Source of the DNA: Reichenbachiella ulvae
Lineage (GTDB): Bacteria; Bacteroidota; Bacteroidia; Cytophagales; Cyclobacteriaceae
Length of the DNA: 64,000 nt
Reading direction: 5' to 3'
Assembly (NCBI RefSeq): GCF_025833875.1
Contig: NZ_JAOYOD010000001.1
Location: 434,001-498,000, forward strand
Below are positions 25,546 through 54,500 of this stretch, piece by piece. Position 1 is the first letter of the stretch; each line of letters opens with the position of its first letter. The translations under genes were made by a program, and so were the position numbers. The notes under the pieces are model-generated. The model saw nothing but the letters and a program-made list of their open reading frames with translations. It ran no database searches and was not told where the DNA came from.

Positions 25546-26695
25546 AAGAAAGTTTATCAAGCAATTGGCGAAGGGTACAGTTGGATTGGCTAGTTCGTCC
25601 TGGCTGATCGAAGCGTGTATGCCTGCAAGTAAGCAAGTATCAGAATCACCGGTAGATGCAGATTTGAAAAACTGGTCGTGGGCGACTCCTAATCACGAGT
25701 GGAAACTAGATGATTGGAAAAAGAGACTCACACAAGCCAAAGAATCAGGGATAGACGCCATCCTGTTAGAAGTGTACAACGGAGATCATGCGTACTTCGA
25801 TACCGATCGTTTGGATGTAGAGGAAGATCTGCTTGGACAGGTGTTGCCGATATGTCAGGATTTGGGATTGGAATTTCATGCCTGGATGTGGACCATGCCT
25901 TGTAACAATAAGAAAATCGTAAGCGAGCATCCGGATTGGTATGCGGTCAATGGATTAGGTCAGTCTGCCGCGACTCATCCGGCCTATGTGGATTACTACA
26001 AGTTTTTAGATCCCTGTAATCCCGAAGCGCAGAATTTTATCAGAGAGAATGTCCATTCACTGGCTCAAATCAAGGAGATCGATGGGGTGCATCTGGACTA
26101 TGTTCGATTGCCTGATGTGATCCTGGCTGAAGCCTTGCAACCTAAGTACAACATCGTCCAGGACCGAGAGTATCCTGAGTATGATTACAGTTATTCTGAG
26201 ATTTGTAGACAAAGTTTCAAAGAGCAAACAGGAATTGATCCACTGACTGATCTGGAGGATCCTTCTGCCCATTCAGAGTGGAGACAGTTTCGTTATGACA
26301 GTGTTTCGAATCTTGTGAATGGGATTTTACTTCCAGAAGCGAAAAAGTTTGATAAGAAGGTCACAGCAGCCGTATTCCCTAACTGGAAGAATGTACGACA
26401 GGAGTGGCATACCTGGGATCTGGATGCGTTTCTGCCCATGCTTTATCACAATTTCTACAATAAAGACATTGATTTTGTCCGTCATCATGTGGAAGCCGCC
26501 CTCGGTAGAATGGAGAAAAAGAAGCCCGTTTATGGCGGTGTATTTGTTCCTTCCCTTAGTCCAGAAGAGTTGGCTAAGACCTATGAGCTCTCGATACAGG
26601 GAGGAGGTAAAGGGATTTCCACCTTTGCTTTGGGTAGCATGACGGATGATCACTTCGCTGCTCTGAAGAAGGTGGTGAAGGCTTCAAAATCGTAG
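25538..26695 (+). CDS. Family 10-like (GHL10/DUF187-type) glycosyl hydrolase, exported
   Basis: ATG 25538 (MDKRKFIKQLAKG) is chosen; upstream codons only overlap the previous gene. About 385 residues begin with a Tat/lipoprotein-like leader ending LIEACMP. The TIM-barrel features are AILLEVYNGDHAYF, GLEFHAWMWTMPCNN and HLDYVRLP (likely acid/base region). The C-terminal half contains VFPNWKNVRQEWHTWDLDAFLPMLY. The GHL10 family hydrolyses glycans, and the exact linkage is not known. It is coupled to the CBM9-like gene. A 21-bp repeat array begins 1 bp after its stop codon. Confidence 0.85.
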   Translation: MDKRKFIKQLAKGTVGLASSSWLIEACMPASKQVSESPVDADLKNWSWATPNHEWKLDDWKKRLTQAKESGIDAILLEVYNGDHAYFDTDRLDVEEDLLGQVLPICQDLGLEFHAWMWTMPCNNKKIVSEHPDWYAVNGLGQSAATHPAYVDYYKFLDPCNPEAQNFIRENVHSLAQIKEIDGVHLDYVRLPDVILAEALQPKYNIVQDREYPEYDYSYSEICRQSFKEQTGIDPLTDLEDPSAHSEWRQFRYDSVSNLVNGILLPEAKKFDKKVTAAVFPNWKNVRQEWHTWDLDAFLPMLYHNFYNKDIDFVRHHVEAALGRMEKKKPVYGGVFVPSLSPEELAKTYELSIQGGGKGISTFALGSMTDDHFAALKKVVKASKS

Positions 26696-26696
26696 T

Positions 26697-26927
26697 TGCA
26701 GACTGCAGAGTTCTCTGTGCATAGCTCCGAGCGCTTCGTGCAGACCTAGGAGATGTTTATGCAGACAATTGTGACGACTGTGCAAACGTTGGAGATGACT
26801 GAGCAGACTGTCGAGGGCTTTATGCAGACTGATGAGTGTTGTATGCAAAGGAATGAGCGCTTTGTGCAGAGGTCGGAGGGGACTATGCAAGGCTCCGAGA
26901 GGTATATGCAGATTGTTGACGGGGTCT
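26697..26927 (+). repeat. Array A: eleven degenerate 21-bp tandem repeats
   Basis: There are eleven consecutive 21-bp units with no spacers. In the phase starting TGCA, positions 3-4 are CA in all eleven units. Ten units begin TGCA and one begins AGCA. Position 12 is G in all, and GAG stands at 12-14 in nine. Positions 8-11 and 15-21 vary freely. All three plus-strand frames carry stops, so the array is not a coding repeat on that strand. It starts 1 bp after the GHL10-like stop, so it would lie in that operon's 3' UTR, upstream of the terminator at 27130. It is not a CRISPR: there is no long constant repeat and no spacer. Confidence 0.9.
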
Positions 26928-27007
26928 ATTCAGTGAACTGTGTCATTGTTAATTAATATCTAATGGGGCTATTCAGTGAACTGTGTCATTGTTAATTAAT
27001 ATCTAAT
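26921..27007. mobile_element. Two tandem copies of an IS256-family-like terminal sequence
   Basis: The segment GGGG(T)CTATTCAGTGAACTG... occurs at 26921-26964 and again at 26965-27007, identical over 39 bp. The second copy runs directly into the 3' end of the transposase remnant, so both are the transposase-distal end of the same insertion sequence. A tandem end suggests nested insertion or aberrant transposition. Confidence 0.7.
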
Positions 27008-51302: not shown

Positions 51303-52787
51303 TCAGTACTTCGCTGCTTTGCCCTTAGAGAGGCTGCTGTTGATGAAGTCTCTCAGGTCCTGATTGGCGGATTTTAGGTCTTCGCTGCGTAGGTACATCA
51401 TGTGTCCGCTGCGGTAGCCTTTGAAATCCAGGCGCTCCTTCATTTGCCCACTAGGATCGATCTGCCACAGGGTGTATTTGGAGTTGAAATAGGTCGTGGC
51501 ACCATCGTAGTAGCCTGCCTGAAAGAGGACCTTGAGATAGGGGTTCTCCGCCGTGGCGAGGCGCAGGTTTTCGCGTGTATGGTTGTTTTGTTTGTCCCAG
51601 GGATGTACATCGCCAAACATGTTGTATTTGATGTCGGTTTTGAAATTGAGTTCTTCTCTGAGGTAATAATTGATGGCGGGAGTGAAGGAGTGCAGCCAGG
51701 AGCTCAGCTCGGCATTATAGTCTGGCGAATCTCCAGCGAGGGTTCGATCCAGACCCAGGTATCTGGAGTCCAATCGGCCGATGGTTTGGCCACTTTCGTC
51801 TCTGAGTAGCTCCTTCCAGAAGAAATGCGTGGGCACGTCCAGGTTGTGCTCCAGGATGGCTTTTTGGGACAGTCCCGAATAGTAGGCCATCTGCTCGGCT
51901 ACCTTTAGTTTTTCCTCAGTAGAGAGAGACGCTCCTCGCGCCAGTGCAGGCATCAGCACATCCAGAGCGAAAGCTTCCGCATCCGGCAAGATCTCCAGGA
52001 GGTCTTTGGACTGAAGGGCCTCAGGCAATACGCCATGGTGCCAGGCTGCTGCGGTGAAGTAGGGCAGATTGAGCGAGGAAGAAATGGGCGTGTCAGAATC
52101 AAAGACTTTGTAATCGGCGGGCGAAACAAGGATGACGCCATTGAGGTACATCCACTGCTGGTCCTGTAGGGCGAGGGCCAGACCCGAAACCCGTGTGCCG
52201 CCATAGCTTTCGCCGATCAGGTACTTAGGAGAGGTCCATCGCTCGTGTCGAGATACGAAGGTGTTGAGCCACTCGGCTAGATAGGTGATGTCGGCATTGA
52301 TGCCAAAGAATTTTTCGCGTTTTACCTCTTCGCCACTGGCGGGGATGGTACGCGAGTAGCCCGTGTTGACCGGATTGACATAGACGATATCCGCCACATC
52401 CAGTATCGAGTGGGGATTGTCTTGTACGCCGTAGGGCTGCAGAGGATAGCCTTCGCTATCGATGTTCAGCACCTTGGGGCCGGTGTAGGCGATGTGCATC
52501 CATACGGAGGCCGAACCGGGACCTCCGTTGAAGGAAATGACCAGGGGTCTATCGGCCTTGCTGTCGCCATTGGTGCGGCGGTAGTAGGTGTAAAAGAGCG
52601 TGGCGATGGGTTCCCCTTTCTCGTCCCAAACGGGCTGCGTGCCGGTCGTGGCGCTGTAGTCCACCTTGCTGCCATTGATGGTGCTCGAATGCTGAGTCAC
52701 GATCATGGTATCGACCGGGATGCTACGGTTTTGGGCCAGGGTAGAGAGACTGAGGATACTGAAAAGTAGGATCAATGTGTGTTTCAT
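51303..52787 (-). CDS. S10 family serine carboxypeptidase-like protein, exported
   Basis: The 494-residue protein has a signal peptide ending TLAQ. Peptidase S10 features are the oxyanion motif VISFNGGPGSASVWMH near 83, the nucleophile Ser194 in IGESYGG, Asp in AGYYDGATT near 415 and His in YRSGHMMYL near 462. The family removes C-terminal amino acids from peptides at acid pH. It is probably periplasmic or outer-surface. The gene is GC-rich relative to the window, and the array B unit starts divergently upstream. Confidence 0.92.
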   Translation of the reverse strand: MKHTLILLFSILSLSTLAQNRSIPVDTMIVTQHSSTINGSKVDYSATTGTQPVWDEKGEPIATLFYTYYRRTNGDSKADRPLVISFNGGPGSASVWMHIAYTGPKVLNIDSEGYPLQPYGVQDNPHSILDVADIVYVNPVNTGYSRTIPASGEEVKREKFFGINADITYLAEWLNTFVSRHERWTSPKYLIGESYGGTRVSGLALALQDQQWMYLNGVILVSPADYKVFDSDTPISSSLNLPYFTAAAWHHGVLPEALQSKDLLEILPDAEAFALDVLMPALARGASLSTEEKLKVAEQMAYYSGLSQKAILEHNLDVPTHFFWKELLRDESGQTIGRLDSRYLGLDRTLAGDSPDYNAELSSWLHSFTPAINYYLREELNFKTDIKYNMFGDVHPWDKQNNHTRENLRLATAENPYLKVLFQAGYYDGATTYFNSKYTLWQIDPSGQMKERLDFKGYRSGHMMYLRSEDLKSANQDLRDFINSSLSKGKAAKY

Positions 52788-53197
52788 GCTGTTGAATATT
52801 GGTTCGATCCATCATAGACCGAATGGGGTTATAGGATCAATTTAAAAATTAATCAAAGGGCGTAATAGGGAAATCTTTTGGGCGGTTGAGATTTTGGACT
52901 GAGGCGCCAGATGGATGGATGAGTGGGGAGTCAGTGGGATAAAAACACCTGTATATTTTGAAAGTCGCGCCGTTATGATTAATATAGTGTTAGCAGCCTT
53001 ATTGAGAATGAAACTCGCGCCCGCGATTTCGATCGTTCTCGACGAACCGTCGCTATCTCTGGCCAACCTATATCACAGACCATAGACATAGGGTCGGATC
53101 TAACTATTGTAGGATTCTGATGTCAGGAAAGTGATGAAAAGAAGAAGAGAAACCAGACTATGAAAGCTGCCTTTTACTTAAAAAGACATGGGGAAAT
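52788..53197 (+). other. Leader region upstream of array B
   Basis: No gene is seen in these 410 bp between the S10 start and the array. There is no clear TAnnTTTG element; the closest is TATATTTTG near 52952, which has one extra base. It presumably contains the promoter for array B and the helical-protein gene. Confidence 0.4.
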
Positions 53198-53659
53198 TAC
53201 TAATGCTTCGGCACTCGATACAAAGCGGGTGACAGGCATTACAAAGCCTCCGGCAGGCGATACAAAGGGGCTGACAACCGATACAAAGGGGCTGACAACC
53301 GATACAAGGACTAGGGCATGCAGTACAAAGAGTCCGGTCAGTCAAACATCCCGAGCCGCATGCAGTACAAAGCCCTCGGTAACCGAAACAATAGAGATGG
53401 GAGGTGTTACAAAACCATCGGCCATCGGTACAAAGGAGTCGGCAGGCGATACAATAGACCTGACAAGCGATACAAAGACCAGGGCAGTCGATACAAGGGG
53501 TCCGGTCAGTCAAGCCTCTCAATGGGCGAGTGATACAAGGGAACCGGACATCCAAACATCGGGTGAGCGGGAGGAAGCAATGGGCCTGGCTCTGCGAGCC
53601 AATGAGCCGGCCGGGCAATCGAGAGCACAGGCCAGCAGCGCCTCAGAGGCGACCTATCC
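53198..53659 (+). repeat. Array B: twenty-two degenerate 21-bp tandem repeats
   Basis: There are twenty-two contiguous 21-bp units. In the phase starting TACAAAG, position 3 is C in all units, position 13 is G in 21, and 13 units start TACAA. Positions 8-11 vary. Units at 53261 and 53282 are identical; the last five units are strongly decayed. The plus frame from ATG 53160 stays open as 7-residue repeats (DTKxxxx), but because 21 is a multiple of three this openness is expected by chance, and the minus strand is open too. The array ends 79 bp before the helical-protein gene on the same strand. It shares period, orientation and anchor form with array A. Confidence 0.9.
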
Positions 53660-53738
53660 AGCGTATGGGGCCTAGACCCTTTCTCAGCTTTGGGTTAATC
53701 AAACAAGTAAATATTTTTTTTACCTAAACATATAGACA

Positions 53739-54383
53739 ATGCGAAAACGCGATGAAAACAAATTGAACATGTACAGAACGGTGCGAGACTGGTTGCTCAG
53801 TCAGTTGAGTGTTTTGTCAGTCCTGCCCAACTTTAGCGAGACGCTGACTGCCTTTGGTGGGCAACTAGAGCAGATCGAGGCGCTGGATGTGGACAAGCTC
53901 ACTACTACGACAGGGATCACCCAGGATAAGGCAGATGCCCGTACCCAGCTGGAGCAGCTCTTGCTACGGGTCATCAATATCCTGAAGGCCTATGCGACCT
54001 TTGCCGACAAACTGAGTCTGATCCCGGCCATCGACCATACGCCGACTCAGCTGGATCGAGCTTCGGAGCAGCTGCTGCTCTCCATCTCTGGCAAGGTGCG
54101 AGAGACTGCTACCGCCGAGCAAGCGGCTGCTGAACCCTATGGTCTCAGCACAGAATTGCTATCGTCCCTGCAGGCTGCCCATGAGCAATTTGCCACCCAG
54201 CAAAACAAGGTAAGAGTCGCCATCGTGGGCAAGAGCCATAGCGGTGATCAGCTAGAGGCTCGCATGGATGCCGCCGACGACCTGCTGAAAGAAAAGCTCG
54301 ATGTACTGATGGACCTGACCCAATTCACCCAGCCCGAACTCTACGAAGAGTATCAAGGCATCCGCATCATTGTGGATCGGTGA
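53739..54383 (+). CDS. Uncharacterised all-helical protein downstream of array B
   Basis: The 214 residues are predicted almost wholly helical, with no signal peptide or membrane segment. Features seen are TTTGITQDKADARTQLEQLL near 65-85, an AYATFADKLSL segment near 87 and a C-terminal ELYEEYQGIRIIVDR. I recall proteins with the same TGIT.DK..AR and Y...R.IVD pattern as a recurring uncharacterised Bacteroidota family, with no known activity. The 21-bp array occupies its presumed 5' leader. The alternative start is Met at 53769. A terminator follows. The gene is GC-rich. Confidence 0.75.
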   Translation: MRKRDENKLNMYRTVRDWLLSQLSVLSVLPNFSETLTAFGGQLEQIEALDVDKLTTTTGITQDKADARTQLEQLLLRVINILKAYATFADKLSLIPAIDHTPTQLDRASEQLLLSISGKVRETATAEQAAAEPYGLSTELLSSLQAAHEQFATQQNKVRVAIVGKSHSGDQLEARMDAADDLLKEKLDVLMDLTQFTQPELYEEYQGIRIIVDR

Positions 54384-54460: not shown

Positions 54461-54500
54461 AAAAGCCCTGTGGTTTACTGGATCGCGGGGCTTTTCTTTT
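54461..54500 (+). terminator. Intrinsic terminator after the helical-protein gene
   Basis: AAAAGCCC (54461-54468) pairs with GGGCTTTT (54488-54495), followed by more pyrimidines. It forms the first part of repeat R2. Confidence 0.7.

Follow-up and report, generated by a model that had tools for sequence, protein, structure and literature searches.

Introduction

Iterons are direct repeats of ∼20–22 bp, equivalent to two helical turns, that lie beside the gene of a Rep initiator protein on plasmids. Partition centromeres of the parC/ParR type are made up of direct repeats in phase, with a small protein gene next to them, and in type III toxin-antitoxin systems a repeat RNA is found upstream of the toxin gene. 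TIGR-Tas arrays give rise to 36-nt RNAs with two spacers, and the accompanying protein carries a Nop domain (PMC12045711). Intergenic direct repeats of the heptamer TAACTGA, proposed to be regulator-binding sites, have been described in five Bacteroidetes, among others; longer arrays, with as many as 43 copies, occur in several Bacteroidetes and Cyanobacteria (PMC4679880).

The locus described here lies within a stretch of 64,000 nucleotides from Reichenbachiella ulvae (the whole stretch is referred to below as the window), on a contig of 5.5 Mb. In it, a long array of degenerate 21-bp units stands next to the gene of a 214-aa protein. TIGR-Tas loci are similar in that one protein gene accompanies a long array whose short units have conserved and variable parts, but the step here is 21 bp and no RNA structure was seen; Pfam scans of the window protein and eight longer family members detected no Nop domain. 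Direct repeats of ∼20–22 bp near a protein gene are shared with iterons, yet the present arrays are probably chromosomal and far more degenerate, with several private codes per genome. No Rep initiator family reached the cut-off in Pfam (nine proteins) or NCBIfam (six), the one RepC match scoring 13.2 bits against a cut-off of 150, and a tblastn search of plasmid records with the window protein, which reaches only near relatives, gave no match. The combination of phased repeats and a small protein gene recalls partition centromeres, but there is no recurrent partner gene. Analogous to type III toxin-antitoxin loci, tandem repeats are placed just upstream of a single gene on the same strand; the units are, however, shorter and degenerate, no toxin family was matched in Pfam, and a fold search gave weak helical matches. 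Folding of the repeat RNA yielded a mean z of about −0.2 on both strands of 94 arrays, pseudoknots lying outside the model. In contrast to the near-identical repeats and unique spacers of CRISPR-Cas, the units are contiguous and degenerate, and, with regard to cas genes nearby, no neighbour family occurred in more than 9 of 148 loci, as counted from clustered rather than individually annotated open reading frames. The TAACTGA repeats are one fixed heptamer, whereas the 21-bp units have many sequences, and the excerpts of that report name no comparable partner protein family. Proteins of the DUF6261 family are similar in size and accompany arrays of period 42, but they have no detectable kinship with the family studied here.

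The array and the protein together look like an undescribed DNA-and-protein system. In the scans made, the defining protein feature was detected for none of the known families considered, and the open-access papers of one library yielded no description of such arrays. By analogy, the system may work like the phased repeats of iterons and centromeres, which are read by a protein.

Results

The Window Array and Its Gene

The array occupies positions 53198–53659 on the plus strand (detected limits 53196–53663) and is followed, after a gap of 75–79 bp (53660–53738), by the start codon of the 214-aa protein gene (53739–54383, plus strand). A recount reproduced the figures given in an earlier reading of the DNA letters (hereafter the sequence-only reading), namely 22 units, with C at position 3 in all 22, G at position 13 in 21 of the 22, and TACAA in 13. 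Uniformity is highest near ACAA (positions 2–5) and GGC (positions 13–15). The self-match of the array is 0.485 at 21 bp and 0.548 at 42 bp; in 2000 shuffles, over periods of 10–63, it did not exceed 0.363. An open frame of 171 aa on the plus strand (53160–53675) spans the array and was judged a by-product of the repeat period, since 21 is a multiple of 3. No Rfam match was obtained between positions 52500 and 55000. The array and the gene had also been proposed to end in one terminator. A terminator-like hairpin is indeed present 3′ of the gene on the plus strand (54461–54495), but it is weak, and two such sites were counted against a mean of 1.8 in shuffles.

A Family of Helical Proteins

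At cut-off, the 214-aa protein matched no Pfam family, and six family members matched nothing in NCBIfam. The AlphaFold model of the window protein (pLDDT 92.6, pTM 0.65) is all helical, as the sequence-only reading had expected of the gene at 53739, and residues 138–197 form a single helix. The architecture of the family is a long-helix bundle of ∼210 aa, often with a further C-terminal domain, and many members are 300–415 aa long. Among eight longer members scanned, a carboxypeptidase-regulatory-like domain reached the Pfam cut-off in L081 and L128 and a C-terminal PEGA domain in L028 and L128, the matches of the other members staying below cut-off; the C-termini of distant members resemble fibronectin-type domains, a label given by eye. 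Searches of the PDB by sequence and fold returned no clear relative, only weak helical matches. PADLOC, run on six proteins, produced a single match, between PDC-S32 and L114 (E 0.0013), over 73 residues of a helical part. The family proteins are acidic and without a known DNA-binding fold, which counts against their being readers of DNA. Conserved columns are basic in 11 cases and acidic in 6, and this surplus of basic columns lends weak support to DNA reading.

A profile search found four copies of the family in the host genome (G000). Within the genus, 4 of 8 genomes gave matches, that of the window among them. Samples of 395 genomes each had matches in 50 at the level of the class and in 18 at that of the phylum, the weakest of the latter being distant or partial. 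Among the named hosts are Carboxylicivirga, Marinilabiliaceae, Sunxiuqinia, one Cyclobacteriaceae bin and one Opitutia bin. Existing annotations mostly read "hypothetical protein," with one source giving "predicted DNA-binding protein." Genome G572 yielded 55 candidates at first look, of which seven were scored and five matched; its copy number may be high.

Arrays Accompany the Gene at a 21-bp Step

Loci were collected from searches and from stretches fetched around matches, and 124 distinct genes were kept, those whose model start was missing or that scored <40 bits being dropped. At least 300 bp of upstream DNA was available for 116 of them, in which arrays were called at periods of 10–69 with an array score >15. 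The upstream DNA of the window gene scored 72.5; the best score among 108 shuffled upstream sequences was 14.3. An upstream array with a period of 21 or a multiple of it was found for 95 of the 116 genes (best period 21 in 49, 42 in 35 and 63 in 11), another upstream period for three (41, 49 or 61), and a downstream array alone, of period 21 or 42, for six (L032, L081, L084, L101, L115 and L122); 12 had neither, all these counts being partly non-independent because some of the genes are closely related. Among 16 full-length genes with usable upstream DNA that were fetched later, 13 have an array at a multiple of 21, the exceptions being L135, where the period is 20, L151, in which a 16-bp repeat at a greater distance is stronger, and L141, which has none. 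Partial or distant new matches have 21-bp arrays at L146, L148 and L158, a period of 20 at L143 and no array at L144, L145 and L159; at L147 and L156 the upstream DNA was too short for a call. The proteins of L146, L148 and L158 (G572 and G780) are distant relatives with fibronectin-like tails. L135 and L143, both with a best period of 20 bp, come from two genomes of one bacterial family, and some lineages may use a step other than 21.

Searching upstream of homologues had been suggested in the sequence-only reading, and the outcome (95 of 116 plus six downstream, and 13 of 16 in the later set) bears out its view of array and protein as one system, in the sense of an association across homologues. 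Its description of the array as the leader of the gene fits the upstream position in most loci but is too narrow, as downstream and stand-alone arrays exist. In 884 kb of loci, with overlapping loci counted, 147 arrays lie close to a family gene, and 139 of them have a period of 21, 42 or 63, as do five of nine away from one; those five all lie in G000 loci fetched for another element, and four of them adjoin other array-linked protein families. No neighbour gene recurs widely beside the family genes, the largest cluster being present in 9 of 148 loci.

The arrays are contiguous runs of degenerate 21-bp units, mostly 8–36 per array. In a unit-by-unit walk, 1236 of 1268 steps were exactly 21 bp, a count that becomes 1216 of 1268 when other steps carry no penalty, and 81 of 102 arrays had no other step, figures biased toward exact steps by the preselection of the walked arrays with a fixed-period detector. 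Most of the remaining steps were 20 or 22. Because many columns vary between units, the 21-bp step itself is probably held by selection.

Anchor Columns and Private Motifs

Consensus sequences differ widely from locus to locus, and within arrays the conservation of columns is uneven (z >3 in 64 of 94). The sequence-only reading had proposed comparing divergence at anchor and variable sites. In 16 of 19 homologous pairs, selected because their proteins are highly identical or their motifs alike, anchor columns diverge clearly less than variable ones, a result somewhat favoured by defining anchors as the most uniform columns in one array of the pair. In the three comparisons involving L003, the difference is 0.09–0.12 at anchors versus 0.43–0.49 at variable columns. 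The remaining pairs, L102/L111, L090/L103 and L044/L077, lack the contrast, and their arrays look as though they had been replaced. The contrast also appears in the pair L046/L047, whose ungapped alignment leaves no room for choice: with 11 comparisons per column, 0–2 differ at positions 3, 4 and 15–17 of the unit and 2–7 elsewhere. The arrays of four genes from three genomes of the genus (L003, L161, L162 and L164) keep TGCA and CT with the other bases scrambled.

A weak directional motif is common to 71 non-redundant arrays, with a score of 1.11 compared with 0.935 for random strands (sd 0.026, maximum 1.027) and 0.759 for permuted columns; in a larger set of 80 arrays it approximates GCAATnnCnnCTGnnnGTnnn. 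For 14 pairs with at least 80% protein identity the mean motif correlation is 0.81, against 0.27 in the opposite-strand control. Only above ∼40%–50% protein identity does motif similarity increase with that of the protein. Some pairs at 72%–87% identity have unlike arrays, and codes can therefore change fast. The array-switching pairs, which are few and related, have relatively more differences at residues 1–12 and 97–108; these are a lead only to specificity residues. The paralogues of G000 (the window gene, L002, L003 and L004) each have an array of another motif, and close homologues of different species have a motif in common. Going by these sequence comparisons, the code travels with the gene, not with the genome.

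Arrays without the Gene

A second array of the window, array A (26660–26910, minus strand, motif TGCAnA.....CTC), adjoins no family gene. Its motif is that of the array of paralogue L003, 250 kb away at ∼710 kb of G000. The two are collinear, the similarity extending from ∼10 bp before the array to approximately its end, and they agree at 77 of 85 anchor sites and 111 of 169 other sites (p = 9 × 10−6); on alignment, array A is a diverged copy of the L003 array. A 43-bp tandem duplication (26922–27007, 97% match) directly before the 5′ end of array A might be a trace of its arrival.

Allowing at most one mismatch, the TGCA-type pattern has 44 matches in G000, 16 of them exact, and 15 of the exact matches fall in four arrays, at 460.7, 531.7, 710.3 and 2712.2 kb; reversed, the pattern has one match. 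Only one of these four TGCA-type arrays is gene linked. Besides array A, the two remaining gene-less ones lie upstream of a Sua5-type gene and of mraZ. The gene-less array before mraZ in G000 (L242) has ∼13 units and is ∼350 bp away from the gene. At L241 (∼531.65–531.91 kb of G000) two short gene-less arrays share one intergenic region, TGCA on the minus and AAAATG on the plus strand, each directed at its own gene. Across the eight genomes of the genus searched, TGCA-type clusters occur in G000, G004 and G006, which are the three with a TGCA-type gene; the other five hold scattered single matches only, and one of them, G003, has other family genes and other arrays. G006 contains two more gene-less arrays, in different places.

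The TTACATA-CT motif forms clusters in five of six genomes searched, with 0–2 matches per genome for the backwards pattern. When six further array loci were fetched, a family gene was present at one and absent from five (one near a contig end). The same gene-less array occurs in two Carboxylicivirga species (L272 and L273), which agree at 111 of 121 anchors, 110 of 153 other sites and 216 of 255 flanking positions (p = 2.6 × 10−5). The gene-less array of L270 copies the gene-linked array of L271 in collinear order, the flanks not being shared. L186 has an L004-type array with a possible gene remnant (13 bits), and at L268 an array follows the neighbour gene that is also found at L271, but the family gene is missing; near arrays of these two kinds its loss is conceivable. 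The gene-less arrays may thus comprise leftovers as well as copies.

Other Array-Linked Families and Repeat Elements

Proteins of DUF6261 (PF19775, 215–269 aa) have period-42 arrays at 6 of 11 loci, in four genomes, and none at five, at an array threshold of 18 with a shuffle control not specific to DUF6261. The arrays are downstream at L192 and L193 (G000) and upstream at L201, L202, L205 and L207, with inverted repeats visible by eye inside several units. Profile comparison detected no relationship between DUF6261 and the array family (probability 7%). A 232-aa family, likewise present in G000 and with no Pfam match at cut-off, has a 21-bp array shortly 3′ of the gene at both of its two loci (arrays and genes at L189:3298–4186 and L194:1745–2716); homology with the array family was not detected with a profile of the 232-aa family built from two sequences only.

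Several further elements were encountered. Strong period-66 repeats lie downstream of the family gene at L008 and L139, those of L008 being CRISPR-like by eye. A dispersed element, TG[GT]CAGGATTTTAAAGT (L168–L185, G000), has 18 matches in G000 and a single one across the seven remaining genomes of the genus; several pairs are 21 bp apart, and it precedes array genes and ordinary genes alike. A 17-bp element considered as a shared promoter of array genes was dropped, the same element being present upstream of ordinary genes.

Discussion

Association of array and gene, a strict step, a motif common to close homologues and anchors kept even in gene-less arrays were observed directly, as was similarity confined to the array for two locus pairs. 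The explanation we favour, which we hold to be about evenly poised between right and wrong, is that the array is the DNA partner of the adjoining protein and carries a private code, by which each protein would read the arrays that belong to it, both in cis and in trans. The linked protein would be the reader because the code follows the gene and not the genome. A length of 21 bp corresponds to two turns of B-DNA and most other steps are 20 or 22, so the target would be double-stranded DNA. Each family protein would recognise its own 21-bp unit and bind the array on one DNA face; aligned on that face of the helix, the units would give rise to a large nucleoprotein array. With a private code bound to the gene, paralogues in one cell would have different arrays, and a protein would act in trans on further arrays of its motif at other chromosomal sites, to which they could be copied as whole blocks without flanks. 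The arrays may be sites of assembly or clustering, serving a scaffold, segregation or silencing.

Other readings place the function in the array's transcript or product. The 171-aa open frame (53160–53675), together with one sense frame open in all five subfamily arrays looked at, would suit a heptapeptide-repeat protein encoded by the array. This hardly tenable reading was rejected, as open frames are near expectation (a sense frame is open in 36 of 94 arrays versus 29.2 expected from permuted columns, and 45 of 94 have no open frame in any of the six) and there is no codon-like substitution pattern: whichever of the three frames is taken, the differences between L046 and L047 fall evenly on the codon positions (27, 26 and 25 for the shared open frame), and conservation by codon position in the window array is flat (0.62, 0.61 and 0.64). 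Alternatively, the array could be co-transcribed and act as RNA, its 21-nt units being bound or processed by the protein as a ribonucleoprotein, guide or sponge. The mostly constant strand relative to the gene (60 of 80 arrays on one strand when strand was left free) and the likeness to guide arrays, with units of fixed size and short variable parts, point in this direction, but a constant strand may be mere inheritance, the variable parts are as short as 4–7 nt by eye, and the six downstream arrays are divided three to three between strands, with small margins. Excess RNA structure is seen on neither strand: the mean z, taken over the first 210 nt of the 94 arrays, is −0.21 for one strand and −0.18 for the other. 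The promoter-like motif TAnnTTTG is not above chance in sense orientation before arrays (2 of 106, against 5.1 in shuffles), nor is it enriched before genes (4 of 85, against 5.3). Before arrays, the reverse strand has the motif more often (15 of 106), an excess read as belonging to putative divergent neighbours. An RNA role is, on this evidence, unlikely.

The helical protein could also be only a neighbour or effector, with another host factor reading the arrays, for example as operators. In favour are the acidic character of the proteins and their want of a DNA-binding fold, together with the 21- or 42-bp arrays of DUF6261 and the 232-aa family, which are not detectably related; it looks as though one shared factor gauged the 21 bp. 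On the other side, one genome contains several motifs (window, L002, L003 and L004), close homologues across species share a motif, and no neighbour gene recurs widely (at most 9 of 148 loci), which makes such a factor rather improbable. The two gene-less arrays that are collinear copies of gene-linked arrays, which they cease to resemble at roughly the array edges, could also mean that the arrays are selfish or mobile and that the protein aids their copying. We give this little credence: no transposase-like family appeared among the matches (nine proteins in Pfam, six in NCBIfam), no empty site is in evidence, and three queries reaching near relatives only had no match in plasmids, phages or viral contigs. 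Copying of arrays is, moreover, also compatible with their being the DNA partner of the protein.

Taking the arrays as DNA partners of their proteins, a broader proposal can be made, tentative and on the doubtful side: that they represent a new class of chromosomal systems, widespread in Bacteroidota and shared by several unrelated-looking families, in which private 21-bp addresses, each defined by one protein, would be kept in cis, copied as whole blocks to other intergenic sites and bound there in trans, so that a single cell would have several parallel sets of scaffold sites that do not cross.

An array exact in length and variable in sequence, beside one family found in 50 of the 395 class genomes sampled, points to a common physical rule of 21 bp combined with locus-specific recognition. 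The array family, DUF6261, the 232-aa family and the fibronectin-tailed relatives, all little known, thereby acquire a shared and testable context. If the protein reads the array, the two would constitute a new kind of programmable DNA-addressing pair, and the loci would provide a large natural set of matches between proteins and motifs from which the code could be learned.
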